From: Paenarthrobacter sp. PH39-S1
GTDB lineage: Bacteria; Actinomycetota; Actinomycetes; Actinomycetales; Micrococcaceae
Length of the DNA stretch: 60,071 bases
NCBI RefSeq assembly: GCF_030063245.1
Contig: NZ_JASISR010000027.1
Location: 1-60,071, forward strand
Direction of reading: 5' to 3'
Position numbers and translations under genes: made by a program. Positions 45,801 to 59,968 of the stretch are shown here, one piece after another. The notes under the pieces were generated by a model. That model ran no database searches, had not been told where the DNA came from, and saw only the letters and a program-made list of their open reading frames with translations. Within the stretch, counting starts at the first letter, position 1. The number at the start of each line of letters is the position of its first letter.

Positions 45801-46973
45801 GTGTCCATGGGCCGGGCTTTTTCGGTGGCCTTGGTAGGGCTGGAGGGGCACATCGTTGAGGTCGAGGCGGATATCGGACAGACCCTGCCGAATTTTGTGC
45901 TGCTGGGTCTTCCCGACGCGTCCCTGAATGAGGCCAAAGAGAGGATCCGGGCCGCGGCCCACAATTCCGGCATTCCCCTGAGCAGACGCAAGATCACCGT
46001 CAATCTGGTGCCCGCGTCGTTGCCGAAGAAGGGGTCGGCATTTGATCTGGCCATCGTGATGGCTGCGCTGAGTGCTGCCGGGGACGTGCGCGGCACCGGC
46101 CGTACCGTTTTCATAGCGGAGTTGGGGTTGGATGGCAGGTTGCGTCCGGTGCGCGGGATTCTCCCGGCCGTGATGGCGGGCATGCGGGCGGGGTTCAGCG
46201 AATTCGCCGTGGCGGCGGCGAATCTCGGAGAAGCCCGGCTGGTGCCCGGGGCGAATGCCAGGGGGTATCAGTCGCTGGCCAGGGTGGCCCTGGATTTTGG
46301 GGCCAATGCGCAGGAGTTGATGTTGGAGGACATCGGCGACGCGGAACCTTCGTTCTCTGCGGCAGCAGCAGTCGGCGAGCCGTCAGCGGGGCCGGATCTG
46401 ATCGATGTTGCCGGTCAGGCCGAGGCGCGGATGGCGCTGGAGGTCGCCGCCGCGGGCGGCCATCACCTGCTGCTGGTGGGTCCTCCGGGTGCCGGGAAGA
46501 CGATGCTGGCCGAGCGGCTGCCGGGGCTATTGCCGGACCTCGATGATGCCGAGGCAATGGAGGTGACGGCCATTCATTCGCTGGGCGGCCGCGATCAGGT
46601 CCTTTCGCTGATCCGCCGGCCGCCTTATGAGCGGCCGCACCACACCGCCAGTACCGTCGCCATCATCGGAGGGGGAAGCGGCATTCCCCATCCCGGTTCC
46701 GCCTCCCGGGCCCATCGAGGTGTGCTGTTCCTCGACGAGGCAAGAAACCGTAAGCACCCCACGCTTCGTGTCTATTTTACCAGCCAGTCGGGCGCGACAA
46801 GGCTAGCGGGGGAGTTCAGCCATGGCCAGTTATGCTCCAGTCGTCGTCCGGGTTCGGCAGTGCTCATGAGCTGCAATCTCTGCGGCAGCGTCGTGAACAG
46901 CGGCACCGCACCGCCGCGCGCCGCCGAAGGCCGGGCCACCTACCACCGCAATTCGTTAGATGATCAACCGTGA
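45801..46973 (+). pseudogene. comM: ComM/YifB Mg-chelatase-like AAA+ protein, 3' half replaced
   Basis: From GTG 45801 about 315 residues match ComM. The N-terminal Lon-protease-like domain has LVGLEGHIVEVEADIGQTLP and ITVNLVPASLPKKGSAFDLA, Walker A is LLLVGPPGAGKTMLAERLPG, and Walker B is RGVLFLDEA. At about 46742 homology stops: family members continue with PEF..VLDALRQPLESG, while here an unrelated 77-residue tail follows to TGA 46971. Sensor and C-terminal domains are missing, so the competence helicase function is lost. dprA, the usual next gene, is absent. Confidence 0.85.
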
Positions 46974-48520: not shown

Positions 48521-49345
48521 CTATCCGAGTTGGCCTGTTGGGTAGAGTTCGCGGAATTTCCAGTCGTGTTCCGGGATGATGATGTCGGCTTCTTTCCTTA
48601 TCCGGTCGTAGCCGGTCATGAGCTCGGGCAAGTCCCAGAAGGATCCCATGGGCCAGTTGAGTTCCAGGTTCTTGTAGTTGTACATGACATCGCTGGTCAG
48701 GCAAACCGTCCCGGCGTCGGTTTCCACCATGACGACCATGCAACCGGGTGTGTGGCCTCCGATCTTGACTAAGCGGACCGAGTCGTTGACGCGGTGGTCG
48801 CCGTCTATGACTTGCAGTCGTTCGCGTACCGCGTCGATCTTGTAGCTATATTCGGGGTAGTAAAACATGCAGAAGGAGGGCGGTTCATCAGCTTGGGGGA
48901 GTTCATCGTTTTGGACGATAAAAGTGGCGTTGGGGAAGAGTTCATTGTTGCCGATGTGGTCGAAATGCAGGTGGGTGAGGATGACGATGTCAACATCCTG
49001 AGGGGCAACCCCGTGTTGGGCCAGCCCCTGCACGAGGTCTTGGCCTTCGGTGCGGGATGCTACGAAGTCGACTCCGTAGCGGCTTTGCATCTGGGAGACC
49101 TCATCGATGTCTCCCAGTCCGGTGTCCACGAGGATCACCTGGTCAGTGCCCTGGATGAGCCAAACGGGCACTGGCACCATGACGCCCTGGGTGATTTCCC
49201 CGTTCTTGCGCTGGATGTCCGTCCGCCATCCGAAGGGACGCCGGTCCTCCACAGGCAGGTCCGGGTGGGCCCCGGAATTAAGCAGGGATACGGACAGGGA
49301 GCTTTCCAGTTCCCCGGTCACGATGTGTTGAATCTTTACACCCAT
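48521..49345 (-). CDS. Metallo-beta-lactamase-fold hydrolase, AHL-lactonase-like
   Basis: 274 residues from ATG 49345 (AAAGGAG 9 bases upstream). VPVWLIQGTDQVILVDTGLG, the HxHxDH metal motif in VDIVILTHLHFDHIGNNELF, later KIGGHTPGCMVVMVETDAGT and DVMYNYKNLEL supply two-metal ligands. The subgroup contains N-acyl-homoserine lactonases and related lactone hydrolases. Its place downstream of a LacI gene and divergent from an import/catabolic operon suggests it hydrolyses an ester or lactone in that pathway rather than quenching signals (inference). Confidence 0.8.
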   Translation of the reverse strand: MGVKIQHIVTGELESSLSVSLLNSGAHPDLPVEDRRPFGWRTDIQRKNGEITQGVMVPVPVWLIQGTDQVILVDTGLGDIDEVSQMQSRYGVDFVASRTEGQDLVQGLAQHGVAPQDVDIVILTHLHFDHIGNNELFPNATFIVQNDELPQADEPPSFCMFYYPEYSYKIDAVRERLQVIDGDHRVNDSVRLVKIGGHTPGCMVVMVETDAGTVCLTSDVMYNYKNLELNWPMGSFWDLPELMTGYDRIRKEADIIIPEHDWKFRELYPTGQLG

Positions 49346-49425
49346 CGAAGTGTCTCCTTTGGTTGATGGCTGATGTTTTTGAGCGGGTGGCAGGACAAGG
49401 CCTGATGCGCGCCGGGCGGCGTCCA

Positions 49426-50457
49426 TCATGGTTGTGAGGACACGGGGGTGGGGCTGAATCGTGATTCGCCGGAGGAAGCACGGGCGATGAGGGTGACGGA
49501 CAGTATTTCGCGGTGAGGTTGAGGGGGGGATTTATGCTCAAGTGAATCCAGCAGGATCTCGGCGGCTTTGGAGCCCAGCCCTGCGATGTCCTGATGGACG
49601 GAGGTGATGGTGGGTTGCGATCGCCGGGCCAGGGAGATGTCATCAAAGCCGACCACGGAGACGTCTTCTGGCACGCGCAGCTTCATGGCTTGCAGTTCTT
49701 GGATGGCCGCGTGGGCCATGAGGTCATTGACGGCGAAAACCGCGGTGAAGTCGTTGTCAGTAATATCGCCGATGCATGCTTGCAGGGCTGCGGTTCCACC
49801 ATCGATGGTCAACGCCCCACGGCTGACGGTGGCAATGCCGCCCGCCGCGGTCCAGGTGGACAAAAATCCCTCCACCCGCTGGGTGCTGCTGATTAGGTGT
49901 TCTTCCCCGGCCAAGACCAACGCCTTGTGATGGCCGTATTCCAACAAATGCTCGGCCGCAAGTCGGCCGCCGGTGACATTGTCGGAGACCACAGCAACCG
50001 TCCGTGAGCCTTCGATCTCCTCATCGACGTGAACGAGCGGAATGTCTCCCAGCAGCCTGGTCAGCTCCTCTCCCGTCATTTCGGCGCCGGCGGCGTAGAT
50101 GACACCGTCGACAGCCTTGCCGCGGAGCATTTCCAAGTAAAGAACTTCACGTTCATGGTTGAAGCCGGTGTTGCACAGCAGGATGTTGTATCCCCTGGAG
50201 CTCGCGACTCCCTCGGCGCCTTTGGTGAGTATGGCGAAAAATTCATCCCCGACATCAGGCACAAGCATCGCCACAATGCGGGTCATCCCCAAGGCGAGGT
50301 TTTGTGCGGCCCTGTGGGGCAGGTAGGCGAGCTTTTCCATGGCATCGTGCACACGTTGCTGGACCTCGTCGCTGACCTTCCGCTTTCCGCTGAGAGTGTG
50401 GGAAACCGTCGTGGGGCTCACCCCGGCCAGTGAAGCAACATCGGCTATGGATACCAC
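49426..50457 (-). CDS. LacI-family transcriptional regulator
   Basis: 343 residues. N-terminal HTH VSIADVASLAGVSPTTVSHT with hinge helix LPHRAAQNLALG, then a periplasmic-binding-protein-like effector domain (IVAMLVPDVGDEFFAILTKG, DNVTGGRLAAEHLLEYGHHK, VFAVNDLMAHAAIQELQAM, VPEDVSVVGFDDISLARRSQ, PTITSVHQDI). Two operator-like sites stand 33-72 bases before its start, so it probably represses itself and the divergent operon until an inducer from that pathway binds. The MBL-fold gene follows in the same transcript. Confidence 0.93.
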   Translation of the reverse strand: MVSIADVASLAGVSPTTVSHTLSGKRKVSDEVQQRVHDAMEKLAYLPHRAAQNLALGMTRIVAMLVPDVGDEFFAILTKGAEGVASSRGYNILLCNTGFNHEREVLYLEMLRGKAVDGVIYAAGAEMTGEELTRLLGDIPLVHVDEEIEGSRTVAVVSDNVTGGRLAAEHLLEYGHHKALVLAGEEHLISSTQRVEGFLSTWTAAGGIATVSRGALTIDGGTAALQACIGDITDNDFTAVFAVNDLMAHAAIQELQAMKLRVPEDVSVVGFDDISLARRSQPTITSVHQDIAGLGSKAAEILLDSLEHKSPPQPHREILSVTLIARASSGESRFSPTPVSSQP

Positions 50458-50490
50458 GGGCCCTCCTTCAGGTCGTCGGTCACATCGTTT

Positions 50491-50504
50491 GCAAACCGCT
50501 TTGC
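50491..50504. promoter_or_regulatory. LacI-type operator 1
   Basis: GCAAACCGCTTTGC has perfect outer arms (GCAAA/TTTGC) around CCGC, the central-CG style of LacI-family sites. A perfect GTTTGCAAAC palindrome overlaps its left edge (50487-50496). Confidence 0.7.
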
Positions 50505-50515
50505 TAAACCTCTTG

Positions 50516-50529
50516 CCAAACCGCTTTGG
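50516..50529. promoter_or_regulatory. LacI-type operator 2
   Basis: CCAAACCGCTTTGG shares the core AAACCGCTTT with operator 1 and has perfect outer arms CCAAA/TTTGG. The centres are 25 bases apart. It overlaps TTGCCA, a possible -35 for the rightward operon. Confidence 0.75.
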
Positions 50530-50604
50530 TTAAATGTAGCGTAGGTCACAACACCGACGCAAGACCGCCGGTATCGGCGCGTATCCCCTGAAAATTCAAG
50601 GATA

Positions 50605-51414
50605 ATGATGATTAAAGTTCTGCTCGCTGGCGAATCCTGGATCAGTAATTCGACACACTACAAGGGGTTCGATTCGTTCAACAGCGTGACCTTCCACACG
50701 GGGCATGGCCCGTTGGTCAAGGCGCTGACCGGATCCGATATTGACCTGACGTTTATGCCGGGTCATGAGGTGGCGGAAAACTTCCCTTCTGATTTGGACT
50801 CCTTCAACAAGTTCGATGTTGTGATCATTTCGGACATTGGCGCCAACAGCCTGCTGCTTTCGGCCAGCACGTGGCTGTCTTCACAAAGGCAGCCCGATCG
50901 GCTGGAACTGTTGGCTGAGTGGACGGCCAGCGGCGGCGGTCTGGCCATGATGGGCGGCTACCTTAGCTTCCAGGGCATTGAAGGAAAGGCCTTCTATGCC
51001 GGGTCCGCGGTGGAACGTGTCCTTCCGGTGGAGATTTCACGTTTTGATGACCGGGTCGAATGCCCGGCCGGTGTCCGGCCGGTGTCGATTTCACCCACCG
51101 GCGGGGTGGACGGGGCCTTCTCTGTGCCCGAGGGCCCTTGGCCCCATCTGCTCGGCTACAACAAGGTCACTGCCAAGGCTGGTTCCCAAGTCCTGGCCGA
51201 GATTGGGCCGGACCCTCTGCTGGTTTTGGGAGCGGTGGGACAGGGCCGCTCGGCTGCCTGGACCAGCGACATCTCCCCGCACTGGTGCCCTGATGAGTTC
51301 TCCAGCTGGGACGGCTACCGGACCATCTTTGTCTCGCTGATTACTTGGCTGGCCGGCAGCCAGGAGGCCTTGGCGTCTGTGCCGCTGATGAACAAGGAGA
51401 CCACTAATGTATGA
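50605..51414 (+). CDS. Class I glutamine-amidotransferase-like protein
   Basis: 269 residues. IKVLLAGESWISNSTHYKGF, VVIISDIGANSLLLSASTWL, WTASGGGLAMMGGYLSFQG and LGAVGQGRSAAWTSDISPHW match the GATase1-like (DUF1355-type) group of proteins. It shows no clear Cys nucleophile elbow (GGYLSF where GATases have GxCxG), so it may bind or process a substrate without glutaminase activity. First gene of the LacI-controlled operon; its stop overlaps the M24 gene by 8 bases. Confidence 0.6.
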   Translation: MMIKVLLAGESWISNSTHYKGFDSFNSVTFHTGHGPLVKALTGSDIDLTFMPGHEVAENFPSDLDSFNKFDVVIISDIGANSLLLSASTWLSSQRQPDRLELLAEWTASGGGLAMMGGYLSFQGIEGKAFYAGSAVERVLPVEISRFDDRVECPAGVRPVSISPTGGVDGAFSVPEGPWPHLLGYNKVTAKAGSQVLAEIGPDPLLVLGAVGQGRSAAWTSDISPHWCPDEFSSWDGYRTIFVSLITWLAGSQEALASVPLMNKETTNV

Positions 51415-52567
51415 GGCCATCACCCGGGTTTCAGAGCTGACGGAGCGGTGTGACCGCTTTCAAGAGCGGATGCTCCAGGCTGGCTTTGAGGCCGCCATCA
51501 TTTCCTCCCCCCTCAGCGTCCATTACCTCACGGGAGTGGACCTGGGAGGGTTCCTGTCACCGCAAGCCTTGATATTTGCCGCCGACAAGGACCCCGTTCT
51601 CATCGTCCGCGATATTGAAATGACCTGGCAGGACCACTGGGCGGAACGGTCGTGGTGCAAGACATGGGCATCCTACAAAGATGACCAGGACGCCCATGTT
51701 GTCATAGGTGAAGCTGCCAGCCAGTTGGTCGGTAGGGGGGTGAAGAGGCTCGGACTTGAGCTCAATAGACCTACCATGAGCTACGACGCCGTCCAGAAGC
51801 TGCTCTCTACCATTGATCCTGGTGCGATCGGCTCGATCACCGAGACGATCGAAGGGATGCGCCGCATCAAATCCGCAACAGAGATTGGATTTATGCGGGA
51901 GGCCGGGAAGATCGCCGTGGCAGGGGTGTATGCACAGGCTGATGCCGTCCGCGGTGGCGCCACCGACACCCAGTCCGTGTCCGCGGCGTTTGGGGCCATG
52001 TTGGAGGCCGGGGCCTCCTTGCTTGCTGACCCGCCGTCGTTGCCCGTCGGTCCCGGGTCGGCGCGCGCCCACAGCCACTGGGACGGCAAGAAGCCTGTCG
52101 ATGGTGACGTTGTCACCTTCTTCATGTCGGGCAGTTACGGCCGCTATCAGTGCCCGGTGGAGAGGACCTTCGTGTATGGGAAAAACCATGGACGAGCCCA
52201 AAGCGTCATCGACTCCGTCGTGGAGGTACAAACGGAGATCCTGGATTTCTTGAAGGCCGGGGTGGTGTCGTCCGAAGCCGACCAGTTTGCGAAGAAGCTC
52301 TATGAAGCACGGGGCCTGGAACAATATCGGGCGTGCCGGCTGGGGTATTCAATCGGCATAGCGTACCCGCCCGGATGGTGGGAGAACGAGATCGCCCAAA
52401 TCCGCCCCGGCAGCGACATGGTCCTTGAACCCGGCATGGCTTTCCATATCGTTCCGTGCCTGTGTGTTCCGGATGTGGGCTTCGTCAACCGCAGCATGGC
52501 CGTTGTCATCACGGAGAACGGCTGTGAGCCGCTCATTGACCTGCCGATAGACAAGCAGGTTCTGTGA
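51407..52567 (+). CDS. M24 pita-bread enzyme without metal ligands (creatinase/ectoine-hydrolase-like)
   Basis: 386 residues: N-terminal creatinase domain (AAIISSPLSVHYLTGVDLGG) and C-terminal pita-bread fold. Three of the five M24 metal ligands are replaced. The first Asp region reads VVTFFMSGSYGRY, the second reads QCPVERTF in place of SDITRTF, and the His position reads LGYSIGIAYPPGW. The two Glu regions (VLEPGMAFH, ITENGCEP) remain. Metal-free members include creatinase and ectoine hydrolase (DoeA), and GY-IG--YPP-W resembles the latter. It probably hydrolyses a C-N bond in a small cyclic or amidine substrate (inference). SD AAGGAG is 8 bases upstream. Confidence 0.75.
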   Translation: MYEAITRVSELTERCDRFQERMLQAGFEAAIISSPLSVHYLTGVDLGGFLSPQALIFAADKDPVLIVRDIEMTWQDHWAERSWCKTWASYKDDQDAHVVIGEAASQLVGRGVKRLGLELNRPTMSYDAVQKLLSTIDPGAIGSITETIEGMRRIKSATEIGFMREAGKIAVAGVYAQADAVRGGATDTQSVSAAFGAMLEAGASLLADPPSLPVGPGSARAHSHWDGKKPVDGDVVTFFMSGSYGRYQCPVERTFVYGKNHGRAQSVIDSVVEVQTEILDFLKAGVVSSEADQFAKKLYEARGLEQYRACRLGYSIGIAYPPGWWENEIAQIRPGSDMVLEPGMAFHIVPCLCVPDVGFVNRSMAVVITENGCEPLIDLPIDKQVL

Positions 52568-53688
52568 TGGAGCCGGTGACGACCGCCGAACGCCCAGCCA
52601 CCTCCAGGCGTCCGGCCACTGGTGCTTCCATCAGGGTCAGGAACGCCATGAAAAGCTACGGACCGACAGTGGTGCTGGAAAACCTGGACCTTAATATTGA
52701 GCCAGGGGAGTTCGTAACCTTGCTCGGACCGAGCGGATCGGGAAAGTCGACCCTGCTCAACGCCATCGCCGGGCTGGAAAACCTGACTGGCGGCACCATT
52801 GAGGTCGATGGGCGGGATCTGACTCGCGTTCCTGCCCATAAGAGGGGCTTCGGCATGGTTTTCCAGTCGTATGCTCTTTTCCCTCACCTGACGGTGGCCG
52901 AAAATGTCGGCTATCCACTGCGTGTTCGGCACCTGGGGGCACGGGACCGGCGCCTCCAGGTGCAGAAATACCTGGAGCTGGTTGCCCTCGACCATATGGC
53001 TGACAGGTTGCCGTCCCAGCTCAGCGGCGGGCAGCAGCAACGTGTGTCACTGGCCCGGGCGATGGTGTTTGAGCCCAGTGTGCTGCTCATGGATGAACCT
53101 CTTGGTGCTTTGGACCGGAACTTGCGTCAGTCGTTGCAGTTTGAGATCCGCAAGCTCCAGCTCGAAGCAGGGTCAACGGTGATCTACGTTACCCACGACC
53201 ATGACGAGGCATTGTCCATGAGCGACAAGGTGGCACTGCTCAACGACGGCAGGATCGTACAGTTGGCCTCCCCCCGGGACCTCTACCGCAACCCACGGAA
53301 TTCGTATGTGGCCGCCGCTTTTGGTGAGACCAGCCTGCTGAAATGCACGGTCGACGCCGGACATGCCGGCTTGACGGCCCACCTGACCGGGAGTGGGCAG
53401 AGCCTGCGTGTGCCGGAGCACACCAACCACACCTGCACCGGAGGAGAAGGGTTCCTTGCGGTGAGGCCTGAAGTGGCGACCATCGTGGGTCCTCGCGATC
53501 CCGGGGCGAACCTTCACGGGATGCTCGAGTCGGTCGCCTTCATGGGTGACATCTGGCGGTGCGAGGTGAGGGTCGGAACGGAAACCCTCATCGCCACGGC
53601 CCCGTCAGGGGCGGCCCTTGCCTATCAGACCGGTCAAGACATCGGGCTGACTCTCGATTTGGATTCACTGCGACTCGTGGCCATCTAG
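52564..53688 (+). CDS. ABC transporter ATP-binding protein, PotA-like
   Basis: 374 residues. Walker A LLGPSGSGKSTLLNAIAGLE, Q-loop VFQSYALFPHLTV, signature LSGGQQQRVSLARAMVFEPS, Walker B VLLMDEPLGALDR, H-loop VTHDHDEAL, then a C-terminal TOBE domain. This layout is typical of polyamine/iron/opine-type importers. Start GTG 52564 or ATG 52567 overlaps the M24 stop, indicating coupling. Confidence 0.92.
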   Translation: MMEPVTTAERPATSRRPATGASIRVRNAMKSYGPTVVLENLDLNIEPGEFVTLLGPSGSGKSTLLNAIAGLENLTGGTIEVDGRDLTRVPAHKRGFGMVFQSYALFPHLTVAENVGYPLRVRHLGARDRRLQVQKYLELVALDHMADRLPSQLSGGQQQRVSLARAMVFEPSVLLMDEPLGALDRNLRQSLQFEIRKLQLEAGSTVIYVTHDHDEALSMSDKVALLNDGRIVQLASPRDLYRNPRNSYVAAAFGETSLLKCTVDAGHAGLTAHLTGSGQSLRVPEHTNHTCTGGEGFLAVRPEVATIVGPRDPGANLHGMLESVAFMGDIWRCEVRVGTETLIATAPSGAALAYQTGQDIGLTLDLDSLRLVAI

Positions 53689-53719
53689 GCTCCGACCTCA
53701 ACTCACAGAAAGAACAACC

Positions 53720-54781
53720 ATGAAACGAATGATTTGGGCGAATATCGCCATTGTGGCGTCGTTGGGCACGGTCCTTGCCGGGTGTGGCACCCCGGCATCC
53801 GATGCTGGTTCGGCACCCAGCCAAACTGTCACGGTGGTGGACGGCGGCGGCGCTTATCACGATGCGATGGTCAAGGCCGTGTATGAACCGTTTGAGAAAG
53901 AAACGGGGATCAAGGTAGTTTCGCAAAGCTACGACTACTCCCAGGGCGCCATCAAGGCCCAGGTATTGGGCGCCAAGCAGTGGGATGTCGTATCCACCTC
54001 CACCATCTTGGACGACGCGGCGGCTGCCGAGTTGTACCAACCCATCGACTATGCGGTTGTGAACAAGGACGGTTACTCGGCCGCCGATGCCTCGAAGTAC
54101 TTCCTCTGGTCGGTGTACTCCGCCAACGTTCTTGCCTGGAACACGAACTCCATCAAGACTGCGCCCACGTCGTGGGCGGATCTCTGGGACACCGGCAAGT
54201 TCCCCGGCCCTCGGGCTCTGTGGAACAGCCCCCAGTCCGTGCTGGAGATCGCCCTCTTGGCCGATGGGGTGAGCTGGGACAAGATGTACCCGCTGGACGT
54301 GGACCGCGCCTTCAAGAAACTCGATGAACTCAAGAGCAAGACCAACATTGTGTGGTACGACTCCGGTGCCCAACAGACCCAAAATTTCTCCAGCGGCGCA
54401 GCCGTCATCGGTGAAGGATGGAACGGGCGTATCGCCTCCTCACGGAACCAGGGGCAGCCGGTGGACTACACCATCAACGGGGCACTCTCGGGTGGAACAG
54501 CATGGGCTGTTCTGAAGACCGCACCGAACAAGACCAACGCGATGAAATTTATGAACTATGCTGGCGGCGCTGAGGCGGGAGCCGCATTGGCGCAGGCCTT
54601 CCCCGGCATGTCACCGGCTAATACCAAGTCGTACCCGCTGATTCCCGAGAAGATTGCCAAGAATCTTGAGTCCAACCCTGCCAATGCCAAGGTGGTGGCA
54701 GGAAATATGGACGCACAGTGGTGGGCCACCAACTACAATGCGGTCTACGAGCGCTGGCAGAAATGGTATTCGGCCAAGTGA
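53720..54781 (+). CDS. Lipoprotein substrate-binding protein, PotD-like
   Basis: 353 residues. Signal peptide with lipobox LAGCG (cleavage before Cys22). The mature part is a two-lobed binding protein of the spermidine/putrescine type: YEPFEKETGIKVV, QWDVVSTSTILDDAAAAELY, AWNTNSIKTAPTSWADLWDT, GPRALWNSPQSVLEIALLAD and WAVLKTAPNKTNAMKFMNYA. It would capture the ligand outside the membrane for the transporter encoded around it. Ligand unknown. Confidence 0.9.
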   Translation: MKRMIWANIAIVASLGTVLAGCGTPASDAGSAPSQTVTVVDGGGAYHDAMVKAVYEPFEKETGIKVVSQSYDYSQGAIKAQVLGAKQWDVVSTSTILDDAAAAELYQPIDYAVVNKDGYSAADASKYFLWSVYSANVLAWNTNSIKTAPTSWADLWDTGKFPGPRALWNSPQSVLEIALLADGVSWDKMYPLDVDRAFKKLDELKSKTNIVWYDSGAQQTQNFSSGAAVIGEGWNGRIASSRNQGQPVDYTINGALSGGTAWAVLKTAPNKTNAMKFMNYAGGAEAGAALAQAFPGMSPANTKSYPLIPEKIAKNLESNPANAKVVAGNMDAQWWATNYNAVYERWQKWYSAK

Positions 54782-56583
54782 GGCAACTGAAAAAGAAGCC
54801 ATCGGTGGGATGGGCGGCCATCCCACCGGTTCTCTTCCTTATCCTGTTCTTCATACTGCCGCTTTTTTACATGGTCCGTCAGAGTTTGTGGCTGCCAGAC
54901 TTCTCGGCCTCGAAATACGTAGAGGCTGTCACAAATTCCGCGTACACGGGCGGATTGAAAAACTCCCTGGTTCTGGCAGCGTATGCCACTCTCTACACCA
55001 CGATACTGGGATTATTTCTCGTCTATGCCATGGACCGTTGGGGGAAGAAATGGCAAATCGCCATCAGCATTTCCCTGCTCATTCCGCTCGTGACCAACGG
55101 TGAGCTCGTCCGGGTCCTGGCCTGGATGATCGGGCTGAGCCCGACCGGTCCCATTACGGCTGTCGCACGCTTCTTTGGATTCCTCCACGCCGGCGAAGGC
55201 CTGGCTCCCAGCCTCGGGGCCGTTGTCCTTGGACTCGTGCACATCCTTCTGCCGTTCTTCGTTTTCGTTGTGTATTCAACCACTCGGGGAGCTGATGCCA
55301 GGATAGAAAAAGCGGCGGTCCTCATGGGAGGCAATAAGCTCCAAGCGTTCCTTTACGCAGCCCTTCCGGCCGCGATACCAGGAATTCTTGCGGGCATGCT
55401 TCTGGCATTCATGATGACCTTGGGCTACTACGCCACCCCGGCACTGTTGGGAAATCCACAAGACACGGTTTTGCCCGTCCTGATCGCCAACCAGATCAAG
55501 CTCCTGGGGGACTACGGCCAGGCCGCAGCGCTGGGCATGCTGCTCCTCGGGGTCATCCTGCTGTTCATCCTTGCACTCAACAAATTGGGTGTCATGCAAA
55601 GTCTTTACGGGGACCCTTCCAGCAAGGACAACGGCAAAGCAGGCCAGTCACGCATGAGCAACTACTGGTGCTCACTGGTGTGTTCCACGCCCGTACAACG
55701 GGTGACCGCCGTTGTCAGCGGCTTCAAAGCTTTCCGATGGACCTCCTACGCACTCGCCCGGTTGGTCGTCCTGCTGCTGTTGCTATTCCTGGCTGTCCCG
55801 CTCATTATTTCTTTGGGCGCTAGCTTTACGCCGACTGAACTGCTGACCTTCCCGCCCCAAGGCATCTCGCTTCGCTGGTACGAAACATTCTTTTCCGATC
55901 CGGTGTGGACATCGAGTGCCCTCAACAGCCTGATCATTGCGCTCATGAGTGCCGTGGTTTCGGTGGTCTTCGGTGCCCTGGCAGCAGCTGCCCTGACACG
56001 TGGAAGGTTCAAGCGGAAGGGCGCACTATTTGCCCTGCTCATCGCGCCACTGGTCATTCCCTGGATCGTTCCGGCGCTGGGCCTCTACTTTGAAAGCGTC
56101 TCCCTGGGAGTAGCCTTCACCTACACCGGCATCTCCATAGGCCACGTCGTTTTGGCTCTTCCATACAGCACCCTGGTGCTGAGCACCGCATTGAGGGGAT
56201 TCGATTGGCGCCTGGATCTTGCTGCACGCATGAGCGGGGCTTCCCTTGGCCGGCGGATAGTGGACATTTACATCCCCCTGCTCAGGCCCGCCATGCTCTC
56301 GGCATTTCTGTTCTCGTTCCTGACTTCGTTTACGGAGTTTGTGTTCGCGTTCTTCATGAGCGACGTCCATCTCAAGACTCTGCCGGTCCAAATGTGGGAG
56401 GGCCTGACCTTCAACGTGACACCGACGGTGGCTGCGGCTGGCGGCATCTTCACTGCCCTGGCACTGGTGGCCATGATCATCGTCGGGGCTTGGCAATACA
56501 TGGCAACACGACGCCTTTCTCCCAAGAAGAACCTACGAAGGGTGACAGCTCCGCCACAGGACAGTTCAGTCCTTAGTTCATAG
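54778..56583 (+). CDS. Fused ABC permease (PotB-PotC in one chain)
   Basis: About 601 residues with two complete binding-protein-dependent permease halves. Half one (about 10-300) has the EAA loop region ADARIEKAAVLMGGNKLQAF, and half two (about 335-590) has DLAARMSGASLGRRIVDIYI, each with six hydrophobic segments. Normally these are two genes; here a ~60-residue linker (KDNGKAGQSRMSNYWC...) joins them. GTG 54778 overlaps the binding-protein stop by 4 bases; an upstream in-frame ATG at 54763 is also possible. Confidence 0.88.
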   Translation: MRQLKKKPSVGWAAIPPVLFLILFFILPLFYMVRQSLWLPDFSASKYVEAVTNSAYTGGLKNSLVLAAYATLYTTILGLFLVYAMDRWGKKWQIAISISLLIPLVTNGELVRVLAWMIGLSPTGPITAVARFFGFLHAGEGLAPSLGAVVLGLVHILLPFFVFVVYSTTRGADARIEKAAVLMGGNKLQAFLYAALPAAIPGILAGMLLAFMMTLGYYATPALLGNPQDTVLPVLIANQIKLLGDYGQAAALGMLLLGVILLFILALNKLGVMQSLYGDPSSKDNGKAGQSRMSNYWCSLVCSTPVQRVTAVVSGFKAFRWTSYALARLVVLLLLLFLAVPLIISLGASFTPTELLTFPPQGISLRWYETFFSDPVWTSSALNSLIIALMSAVVSVVFGALAAAALTRGRFKRKGALFALLIAPLVIPWIVPALGLYFESVSLGVAFTYTGISIGHVVLALPYSTLVLSTALRGFDWRLDLAARMSGASLGRRIVDIYIPLLRPAMLSAFLFSFLTSFTEFVFAFFMSDVHLKTLPVQMWEGLTFNVTPTVAAAGGIFTALALVAMIIVGAWQYMATRRLSPKKNLRRVTAPPQDSSVLSS

Positions 56584-56671
56584 GGGAGTACCGACGCCCC
56601 TGATCTATGGAAGAACGCCAGCCCAGATTTCATTTCAAAAGTGTCCCGACCACACGAGAAAAAGAGAAGTT

Positions 56672-57619
56672 ATGAGTAAAACGACCACCCATCCCACCGT
56701 GCTGGTCGTCGGGTCCCTGAACATGGATCTGTCAGTGCGCACATCGAGGTTCCCGAATCCGGGGGAGACAGTACACGGCGGGGAGCTTAAAAAAGTCCCT
56801 GGGGGGAAAGGTGCGAATCAGGCAACGGCCGCACAGGCCCTGGGCTGTCAGGTCTCGATCATTGGAGCCGTAGGAGACGATGATTTCGGTTCCACGCTTC
56901 TTGCGGCAGCACAAACCCACGGCATAGACACCTCCCACGTCAGCGTCCTACCCGGAATCGCCACAGGGTCCGCGATGATTGCGATTTCCGACGACGGGGA
57001 GAACACCATCATCGTGTCCCCGGGGGCCAACGGACGGCTCCTCCCATCCCACATAGTTGAAGCCGAAGCCCTGTTTCGAGACTCAGCAGTACTGTGCCTG
57101 TCACTGGAAACGCCTCTGGCAACCGTTCAGGCCGCAGCGCGGATGGGAAAAATCCACGGGATCACCAGCATCCTGAACCTCTCGCCCTACCGTGACGTCC
57201 CAAGGGATTTTCTGGATACTGTCGACATATTGCTCGTAAACAGACATGAAGCTGCAGGACTTCTCGGCAGTCCAGTCATCGACTCCAATGACTGGGAAAT
57301 GGTGCAGTCACAGTTTTTCAGGGCCGGCTTGACCCGGGTCGTGGTAACCCTCGGCTCTCAAGGTGCCGTGGTGCTCGATTCGACCGACGGTGAGAGCATG
57401 CCACACATGGTTGAACCACTCACTGTCCAAGCCGTGGACACCACAGGGTGCGGGGACGCATTCTTCGGCGCGATCGCCCAGCAGATCGCACTCGGAGCCG
57501 GACTGACCGAAGCCGCCAGCTTCGCAGCCAAAGTCGCATCCCTCACAGCAGCCAGGGAAGGAGCCCAAACCTCATACAACGTTCTCGCAGATACCTACGC
57601 CGGATTAATGGAGTCCTGA
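56672..57619 (+). CDS. PfkB-family carbohydrate kinase, ribokinase-like
   Basis: 315 residues. VVGSLNMDLSVRTSRFPNPG and VPGGKGANQATAAQALGC are the N-terminal PfkB signature, and VDTTGCGDAFFGAIAQQIAL holds the catalytic Asp and anion hole (with Cys replacing the usual Ala of GAGD). Ribokinase-type enzymes phosphorylate sugars or nucleosides with ATP. Last gene of the LacI-regulated operon (88 bases after the permease), suggesting that the transported compound yields a sugar-like alcohol (inference). Confidence 0.85.
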   Translation: MSKTTTHPTVLVVGSLNMDLSVRTSRFPNPGETVHGGELKKVPGGKGANQATAAQALGCQVSIIGAVGDDDFGSTLLAAAQTHGIDTSHVSVLPGIATGSAMIAISDDGENTIIVSPGANGRLLPSHIVEAEALFRDSAVLCLSLETPLATVQAAARMGKIHGITSILNLSPYRDVPRDFLDTVDILLVNRHEAAGLLGSPVIDSNDWEMVQSQFFRAGLTRVVVTLGSQGAVVLDSTDGESMPHMVEPLTVQAVDTTGCGDAFFGAIAQQIALGAGLTEAASFAAKVASLTAAREGAQTSYNVLADTYAGLMES

Positions 57620-57732: not shown

Positions 57733-59101
57733 GACTCTCCTGACGTCAGTGTGGGCCAGTTTATTTCTGGTACGGGAGTTTGATTTCCACTGGGCCGCAG
57801 GCGAGCATGATCAGGGCGAGAGCGGCTTCTAGGGTGTGGAATCCGTAGGATCTGCGGGTCATGGTTCTGATCTTGTTGTTCAGGCCTTCGTGGCGGCCGT
57901 TGGAGAGTTGCCTGGTGACGGCGGCGTGGATCCCGTCGGTGTGGGAGCGGATGGTGGCGGCGGCCCTGGCGAACTCGCGGATGTTGGATGTGGCGGCGAG
58001 TTCGCACCGGGTGGTGATCATCTCCATCACGTCAGCGGGGTTGAGGTCGCCGGCGAAGACTTCCCTCAGGGATTCCTTGAGCTGGTAGGCGTCCCATAGA
58101 AGCCCTCCGGCCTGTTCGAGCCCGGCCAAGGTGACTTGTTGCTTCCCGGTGAGGTTCTGCGGGTTTTTCAGCAGCACCCAGCGGGTTCCCTTGAACTTCT
58201 TCGCGATGTCCTGATCGGGCAGATCACGGGCCCGTTGCCAGATGGAACGGCGGAAGGATTCCAAGGCGTTGGTGGCCAGCTGGATGACGTGGAATGGATC
58301 GTAACAGATGACCGCGCCGGGGGCGTTGGTCCTCACGGACTTGGCAAAAGCCGGTCCCATGTCCATGCTCACGGCCTCTATCACCGCCGTGTTCTCGGCT
58401 CCGATCTCGGCGAAGAACCCGTCCAGTGTGGCCGCGTTTTTCCCCGGGGCTCCCCACACGATCTTCGAGGTGGCGTGGTCCGAAACCAGGGTCAGGTAGC
58501 GGTGGTGTTTGCGCCAGGAAATCTCATCCACCCCAATATTGACCAGGGACTCGAAGCGTGTTTCATCGAGCTGTTCGGCCACGACGCGTTCGCAGATCGC
58601 CCCGACCGTCCGCCACGCTATCCGGGCGAACAATGACACCGTGGTCTTGTCCGCCCGGGTGACCAGCCAGGCGATCATGTCCTCAAAGTCCGTGCTGAAC
58701 CGGGACCCGGGCCGGGCGAACGGCACGCCCTGAACCACGACCCCATGGGCCGGACACACCAGGCGCCGGCGCAGCATCGTCAGCACGGTCACCCGCCCCG
58801 CAACATCCAGGAGGATTCGGCCCACCGGGTGTCATAGCCGGCCATCGTGAAGAAGCTGCAATGCGGGCAGTCCAGGCGTTTGCGGGCCTTCAACGCCACC
58901 CGCACCACCAACGGGCCAGCAGCGTGCACCAGGATCAACATCAATGACGCGCACGCCTGTCAGGTTAAGGAGACGGTTGAGTAGAGTGGTAGCACGCATG
59001 GGTAACTCCGAAATTTGGGCAGTGTGAGAACTACCAAATCTACCGGGTTACCCATGCCCCATAACACACAAACCCTGACCCACACTTACGTCAGGAGAGC
59101 C
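57733..59101 (-). mobile_element. Complete ISL3-family insertion sequence (1369 bp)
   Basis: Ends are 27-bp inverted repeats (57733-57759 and 59075-59101) matching at 24 positions with the shared core CTCTCCTGACGT. It is flanked on both sides by the 8-bp direct repeat GGATGTCT (57725-57732 and 59102-59109), the target duplication size known for ISL3 elements. The insertion lies just after the ribokinase gene. Confidence 0.9.
57761..58999 (-). pseudogene. ISL3-family transposase with two N-terminal frameshifts
   Basis: From ATG 58999 the frame reads MRATTLLNRLLNLTGVRVID. Near 58940 it shifts to the frame with PLVVRVALKARKRLDCPHCS (zinc-finger region), and near 58815 it shifts again to the main DDE frame (from VAGRVTVLTMLRRRLVCPAH). 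That frame has VDEISWRKHHRYLTLVSDH, VSMDMGPAFAKSV, CYDPFHVIQLA and the late Glu region SNGRHEGLNNKIRTMTRRSY, all ISL3 marks. The catalytic domain is complete, but the DNA-binding N-terminus is disrupted. Confidence 0.85.
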
Positions 59102-59296: not shown

Positions 59297-59968
59297 ATGA
59301 CCGCCATGTCTATCGTCGCGCATTCACATGCGTTTGTCGTCGGTGTCGGCACCCACGTCCGTAAACACGTATAAGCAATCATCGCCGCCACCACCGGTGA
59401 ACTCGTTGATACCCGGGATTTCCCCACCAACAGTGCCGGCATCAGCCGCGCTACAGCTTGGGTGGCCCGCCGCACGGGTGCTGACCTCGCGGCTCTCTGG
59501 GTGAACGAAGGTGCCGCCTCATACCGGGCCATCCTCGCCGGAGCCGTCGGCGCCGAGGGCTACGAAGTCGTCGAAGCCGCCCGCATCGACGCACGGGCCC
59601 ACCACGGCGTCGGAAAATCCGACCAACTTGATGCCCAGCGGATCGCCAGGACAGCACTCCCGTTGGAGATTAAGCAGTTGCGTCGACCCCGGGTCAGTGA
59701 AGGCGTCCGTGCGTCCCTGAGGGTCCGGATATCTGTGCGTGAAGCTATGACCGGTGAACGTACCCGGGCCGTGAACGCGCTGACCGCTCTGGTGCGCGTC
59801 AACGATCTTGGCCTGGACGCCCGCAAGGCCTTGACCAGTGTGCAGTTTGCCGAGGTGTCCCGGTGGCGTGCCCGGGATGAGGAGTTGGTGCTCGCCATTG
59901 CCCGTACGGAAGCTATCCGGTTCGCGAAGCGGATCGGTGAGCTTCCCTCTACGTCAAGCTGGTTGTGA
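59297..59968 (+). pseudogene. IS110-family transposase, premature stop and 3' truncation
   Basis: ATG 59297 starts MTAMSIVAHSHAFVVGVGTH. A TAA at about 59369 interrupts (HV*AIIAATTGELVDTRDF), and the same frame then continues through VARRTGADLAALWVNEGAAS, HHGVGKSDQLDAQRIARTAL (DEDD-domain region) and EGVRASLRVRISVREAMTGE to a stop at 59966. The GVGTH motif replaces the expected GVDTH, losing the first catalytic Asp. The C-terminal transposase_20 domain is absent. Confidence 0.8.

Follow-up and report, generated by a model that had tools for sequence, protein, structure and literature searches.

Among the closest described relatives of the genes considered here is the RikA (STM3547)-STM3548-STM3549-STM3550 cluster of Salmonella and other Enterobacterales, in which RikA, a PfkB kinase encoded beside a PF07090 gene, phosphorylates ribose (PMC13432705, 2026). 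The portion of that report describing the cluster leaves its pathway unexplained, for an unknown substrate, and mentions a putative phosphotriesterase (PTE) hydrolase and a DMT-type transporter; this description names no metallo-β-lactamase (MBL) fold hydrolase, M24 enzyme, Pot-type importer, or LacI regulator (PMC13432705). Here, we analyzed a locus at positions 48521–57619 of a 60,071-nucleotide stretch of Paenarthrobacter sp. PH39-S1 (GCF_030063245.1, contig NZ_JASISR010000027.1, positions 1–60,071; hereafter the window), which shares with that description PfkB beside PF07090, a transporter, and a putative metal-dependent hydrolase (PMC13432705). PF07090, PfkB, hydrolase, and transporter genes occur together in the window locus, with an MBL-fold hydrolase instead of a PTE-family one. 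We read it as a LacI-repressed pair of catabolic operons for a sugar-linked nitrogen compound, an interpretation that we hold tentatively and consider plausible, if somewhat short of probable.

A second group of relatives combines ribose-type ATP-binding cassette (ABC) genes with PTE and PF07090. Such clusters occur on Rhizobiales plasmids and in Streptosporangiaceae, Coriobacteriia, and Micrococcaceae (L093–L095; L-numbers denote fetched comparison loci), often with PfkB and LacI, and some with BtpA/SgcQ, TenA, or M20. They have in common with the window locus PF07090, an importer, one hydrolase, and in many cases a kinase and a regulator of the same kinds, but PTE replaces MBL, the importer is of the ribose type, and M24 is lacking.

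A recurring gene core and a predicted operator pair

All eight reading frames of the locus are intact (8/8 in an open reading frame (ORF) check of the window) and have the families, strands, and order that a previous interpretation of the DNA letters (the sequence-only reading) had assigned to them. The leftward arm comprises a LacI-family repressor (49426–50457, minus strand) and the MBL hydrolase (48521–49429, minus strand). The divergent rightward arm runs, on the plus strand, from the PF07090 protein (50605–51414) through an M24 enzyme (51407–52567), a Pot-type ATPase (52564–53688), a solute-binding protein (53720–54781), and a fused permease (54763–56583; ORF listed from 54718) to the PfkB kinase (56672–57619). 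Its genes are close or overlapping, as had been described: the PF07090/M24 and M24/ATPase junctions overlap by 8 and 4 bp, the ATPase/binding-protein and permease/PfkB junctions leave gaps of 31 and 88 bp, and the binding-protein/permease junction overlaps by 19 bp given a permease start at the internal ATG at 54763, which makes three overlaps among the five junctions.

The same eight genes occur in the same order in Arthrobacter hankyongi (L002), at 68–87% best-segment and 66–89% end-to-end identity, and the ratio of nonsynonymous to synonymous substitution rates (dN/dS) between the two loci is 0.06–0.22 across every gene. Because this eight-gene synteny is accompanied by low dN/dS for each gene, the gene set appears to be more than a chance assembly. 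A search led by the MBL protein alone found four genomes other than the source genome itself, and in three of these (L088, L090, and L097) PF07090 lies within ∼1.2 kb of the MBL gene. L088 (genome G450) and L092 (G244), the latter retrieved by the PF07090 search and not the MBL search, carry seven-gene same-strand runs in the order LacI, ATPase, permease, NMT1-type binding protein, MBL, PF07090, and PfkB. These runs share with the window a kindred LacI (48–55%), the operator pair described below, and an MBL 77–79% identical to the window's, but they have an NMT1-type importer, no M24, and a PF07090 protein just 37–41% identical. L097 mirrors the window layout, with PfkB-PF07090 divergent from LacI-MBL; an arginase-family gene and an NCS1 nucleobase-type permease gene (L097:10329–12827) adjoin its MBL orthologue and are convergent with it. 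PF07090 directly adjoins MBL in L042 and L090. In the latter (L090:1–6918; G1246, a 1.4-Mb genome), PF07090, MBL, an amidohydrolase, a different M24 enzyme, and an arylformamidase-like cyclase stand in a row, together with an NMT1-type importer, and the pathway looks more elaborate there.

In gene content, comparison shows LacI, MBL, PF07090, and PfkB, together with an importer, to be a recurring core unit. By the same measure, the M24 enzyme and the Pot-type importer, whose orthologues were encountered alongside the core only in the source genome and A. hankyongi, are variable, local additions. The co-conservation that the sequence-only reading had named as support for one pathway therefore held in part: it extends to LacI, MBL, PF07090, PfkB, and an importer, and leaves M24 and the PotABCD-type importer outside.

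The 147-bp gap between the divergent LacI and PF07090 genes contains the predicted operator CAAACCGCTTTG two times, at 50492–50503 and 50517–50528 (strand not applicable), spaced 25 bp. The first copy in A. hankyongi is identical to that of the window, and the second, CAAAGCGCTTTG, is an exact palindrome. The pattern CAAANCGNTTTG was picked after inspection of the window's intergenic sequence and then tested in other loci. Two copies precede lacI in each of the window, L002, L088, and L092, and, save for short duplicate pieces of the window and A. hankyongi, it was not found elsewhere in the 98 fetched loci (1,330,504 bases). LacI identity to the window protein is 55% in L088, 48% in L092, and 31% in L097; the helix letters TTVSH are kept in the window, L002, L088, and L092, and differ in L097, which is also without the operator pattern. 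Comparison of these loci shows a conserved pair of predicted LacI operators between the divergent arms. With this pair and the recurring core, the locus looks like the single regulated uptake-and-degradation unit proposed earlier. The repressor itself has LacI and Peripla_BP_3 domains, and its best curated model is RbsR (233 bits vs a cut-off of 382).

The wider PF07090 neighborhood

Neighbors within 6 kb of PF07090 were counted in 56 loci, many of them closely related to one another and several on contigs that break off early; the search models derived from the window and from relatives annotated on plasmids. PTE was found in 45 loci, LacI in 34, RbsC in 33, RbsA in 32, RbsB in 30, PfkB in 27, and MBL and M24 in two each, whereas PTE and MBL occurred together in none of the 56. 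Among loci added later, L093–L095 have PTE without MBL, L088, L090, L092, and L097 have MBL without PTE, and L091 has neither. Because the two were never found together near PF07090 in the loci examined, MBL and PTE look interchangeable.

A PF07090 tree was built from 68 proteins; L053, L055, L057, and L096 had been left out, as had nine of the 15 plasmid loci with annotation. The MBL label changes five times on this tree (at least four changes are forced), a value equally low in 10 of 500 shuffles. Each change may reflect a gain, a loss, or a swap, and long branches lead to several of the MBL rows; on all three counts, the tree does not decide between possible origins of the MBL pairing.

Genes for C–N hydrolases and N-heterocycle-type transporters recur near the relatives, namely TenA, hydantoinase/carbamoylase-type M20, nitrilase, NMT1/THI5 binding proteins, an NCS1 permease, and arginase-family members, and annotated PF07090 settings also hold BtpA, M20 of the allantoate/carbamoylase kind, TenA, and nitrilase. 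On Ti plasmid pTiA47a (L067:7004–14584), PF07090 comes after trbI, and genes for hydantoinase/oxoprolinase, SIS, and fructoselysine 6-kinase lie downstream. One Rhizobium cluster has a PTE (L061:6803–7882) whose closest solved relatives are 3k2g, the PTE-related 9efa, and Pmi1525; because the last two are among them, this enzyme may in fact hydrolyze lactones or amides and not cleave phosphotriesters.

Enzymes, importer, and genomic setting

The PF07090 (GATase1_like) protein matches its family at an expect value (E) of 2e-93. In an alignment of 41 PF07090 sequences, no Cys was found in any column that is invariant or 90% conserved; the invariant residues include E10, W12, K20, D23, H54, D77, D148, D149, R150, N186, D222, H226, and W227. 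Because the 41 proteins have no Cys in common, the label "glutamine amidotransferase" is unsupported; class I glutamine amidotransferase function, which would call for a conserved nucleophilic Cys, was rejected, and with it any amidotransferase chemistry that the name GATase-like, used in the sequence-only reading, might suggest. In a structure search with its AlphaFold2 model (mean predicted local distance difference test score, pLDDT, 90.7), the best matches were Salmonella STM3548 and STM1381, followed by a planctomycete GATase1-like protein. Further matches were glycoside hydrolases and phosphorylases with query template modeling (TM) scores of 0.38–0.53 (best 50 of 74, E up to 0.001). These predicted-structure matches are suggestive of a carbohydrate-related setting, without being decisive.

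The kinase is ribokinase-like. Its best model, RbsK (TIGR02152), scored 282.3 bits and missed the cut-off of 299.65, and the protein is the best of three matches to this model in the genome at E 1e-20. Aligned with Escherichia coli RbsK, it retains D19, G44-G45-K46, N49, E146, and D262, residues that we take to be ribose contacts; among 17 kinases placed side by side, only L061 and L070 differ at the Glu position. Because these ribokinase-like residues are kept, a ribose-like sugar moiety is suggested.

The MBL hydrolase (Lactamase_B) is of the N-acyl-homoserine lactone (AHL) lactonase/4-pyridoxolactonase kind and probably starts at the internal ATG at 49345, since its relatives begin there. 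Comparison shows HxHxDH together with H226, D247, Y250, and H288 in the window protein and in all seven relatives compared. All eight AiiA-type positions, taken here to be the dinuclear Zn ligand set (with D247 as the bridging Asp) and catalytic Tyr of a lactonase, are present, as in AHL lactonase AiiA and 4-pyridoxolactonase. The window protein nevertheless scores below the AHL and pyridoxolactone lactonase equivalog cut-offs (99.7/375 and 92.6/325 bits) and has another genetic setting. No MBL relative was found in the phage collection at E 1e-30, and no MBL pattern match in viral contigs.

The M24 protein (Peptidase_M24 and Creatinase_N) is of the creatinase/DoeA-like kind, and its nearest solved structure is the ectoine hydrolase DoeA. 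Like DoeA and creatinase, it is a two-domain M24 protein without the usual metal ligands. Aligned with DoeA, both proteins lack the usual two Asp, as the earlier description of a "metal-ligand-less" enzyme implied; in metal-dependent M24 enzymes these positions hold metal ligands, and DoeA is metal-free. Unlike DoeA, the window protein lies far under the curated DoeA cut-offs (177.6/575 and 122.7/613 bits), and the genome had no match to DoeB (TIGR02994) at E 1e-5; ectoine use was rejected on these two grounds. At E limits of 1e-60 and 1e-70, orthologues were present in two of 295 family genomes, namely the source genome and A. hankyongi, and in none but the source genome in draws of 396 genomes each from the order and the phylum; the G150 locus is a letter-for-letter part of the A. 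hankyongi locus. Membership of M24 in a widely conserved six-gene core was rejected on this distribution in the genomes searched. Other-subfamily M24 enzymes are encoded close to PF07090 in L090, L037, and L072, and no M24 relatives were found in viral contigs.

The importer consists of a PotA/PhnT-like ATPase (ABC_tran and TOBE_2), an SBP_bac_8 binding protein, and a permease that is a single polypeptide, PotB-like at residues 40–285 and PotC-like at residues 346–589 by curated-model match. The solved relatives of the binding protein are titled polyamine, γ-aminobutyric acid (GABA) sensor, mannopine, and agropine permease, and its best match, 4i1d, is untitled. True PotABCD spermidine/putrescine import was rejected, as the cut-offs were missed by PotA (312.5/355.6 bits), PotC (151/326), PotB (114/348), and the best polyamine model of the binding protein, PotF (35/636).

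The locus is flanked as had been reported, by insertion sequence (IS) elements and a broken comM: a truncated comM/YifB-like gene at 45801–46973 precedes it, covering model positions 2–312 of 499 (a second, intact copy is on contig C46 of the same assembly), and an ISL3 transposase (57761–58825) and an IS110 transposase fragment (59462–59968) lie beyond PfkB. Since the guanine–cytosine (GC) content of the locus is 59.1% vs 65.0% in window positions 1–48000, its acquisition by the Paenarthrobacter genome is likely, in agreement with the earlier suggestion. The A. hankyongi locus genes are GC-richer (62.7–69.1%), and two of the six ORFs scanned in its flanks matched families (DUF4839 and NERD), neither of them an IS. 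Phage or plasmid cargo was rejected: the phage collection yielded no MBL relative at the limit used, viral contigs yielded neither an MBL pattern match nor an M24 relative, and the relatives found on plasmids are all under 60% identity.

Candidate substrates and biological meaning

Under the reading of the locus as a catabolic operon pair for a sugar-linked nitrogen compound, LacI would repress both divergent arms via the operator pair. The Pot-type importer would take up a compound that bears an amine or carboxylate group and is linked to a ribose-like sugar. M24 would hydrolyze a C–N bond of the amide or amidine type, MBL would open a lactone or a comparable cyclic ester, and PF07090 would perform a further step on the sugar-linked substrate, other than glutamine-dependent amidotransfer. 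PfkB would then phosphorylate the ribose-like sugar so released, which would enter the pentose phosphate pathway. A PTE-family hydrolase would take the place of MBL in most relatives. The specificity of import, the order of the steps, and the substrate are what we infer. The small nitrogenous substrate of the sequence-only reading keeps its conditional standing, and the ribokinase-like residues add a ribose-like sugar moiety to it.

Several observations weigh against this interpretation. PfkB lies near PF07090 in just 27 of the 56 loci (several contigs being cut short), no PF07090 was found in the 19 kb fetched for L089, and neither PfkB nor LacI in the 24 kb of L090. The portion of the RikA report describing the kinase allows that its ribose activity is a possible off-target one (PMC13432705). 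No glycosidase or dehydrogenase family was recognized among the locus proteins in the family scan, and no window protein reached the cut-off of a substrate-naming model in the curated-model scan. Because its orthologue is missing from L088, L092, and L097, M24 may serve only the compound of the window-type importer. The arguments from the ribose pocket and from the replacement of the two Asp depend on presumed residue roles.

Two of the alternatives are narrower versions of the same reading. We consider it rather unlikely that the pathway breaks down an N-heterocycle carrying ribose, for example a ureide riboside or a nucleoside that is modified or damaged. M24 would open an amide or amidine ring, as DoeA opens that of ectoine; MBL would cut a second cyclic bond, and the kinase would recover ribose. 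DoeA is indeed the nearest solved M24; relatives hold NCS1 and NMT1/THI5 transporters, TenA, and hydantoinase/carbamoylase-type M20, and ribose-type ABC genes lie near PF07090 (RbsA in 32/56 loci), but the family scan recognized no nucleosidase family in the locus, and no Pot-type binding protein is known to take nucleosides. Quite unlikely is the catabolism of an opine- or Amadori-type sugar–amino acid conjugate, with mannopine/agropine-like import, lactone opening by MBL (agropine is a lactone), C–N cleavage by M24, and phosphorylation of the sugar by PfkB. Although the solved relatives of the binding protein include 5l9s (mannopine), 6hly (agropine permease), and 5l9g (MotA), those scoring higher are 4i1d, 4eq7 (titled polyamine), and the GABA sensor 6dgv. 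The PF07090 gene of the Ti plasmid lies near fructoselysine 6-kinase, SIS, and hydantoinase/oxoprolinase genes; the window kinase, however, scores 282 bits with ribokinase vs 59 with fructoselysine 6-kinase, and the sibling runs have NMT1-type binding proteins. Arthrobacter strains degrading the opine santhopine are known, as stated in part of one report (PMC8262997).

Use of ectoine or of GABA/polyamines, with PfkB and PF07090 as unrelated neighbors, seems highly improbable. In its favor, the M24 enzyme comes closest to DoeA, and the nearest matches of the binding protein are 4i1d and proteins bearing the titles polyamine and GABA sensor; the DoeA scores (178 and 123 bits vs 575 and 613) and the missing DoeB match speak against ectoine, however, and MBL, PF07090, PfkB, and LacI recur together without M24 or a Pot-type importer. 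Broader in scope, and in our view doubtful, is the proposal that PF07090 marks an undescribed catabolic pathway across several bacterial phyla. Its core would be PF07090, a ribokinase-like kinase, and LacI; the importers and the hydrolases that open rings or esters (PTE or MBL; TenA, M20, M24, nitrilase) would be exchangeable around this core, and the combinations would harvest ribose from different ribose-linked nitrogen compounds. The window locus would be its version with MBL, M24, and a Pot-type importer. No named pathway or paper with this gene set was found in the open-licence literature searched (most subscription papers fall outside it), in line with the earlier remark that none was known.

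Public records name PF07090 proteins glutamine amidotransferases, though no Cys is common to the 41 sequences aligned, and many PF07090 genes sit in catabolic-looking gene sets without a named substrate in the searched literature. The mutual exclusion of MBL and PTE and the conserved predicted operator offer two handles on the pathway: the 12-base motif allows regulon prediction, and if one MBL and one PTE hydrolyze the same compound, that compound would be the intermediate of the pathway. With a ribokinase-like kinase in the set, the products to look for can be limited to ribose-like ones. The Paenarthrobacter locus represents an uncommon form of a bacterial gene module that is widespread but has yet to be explained.

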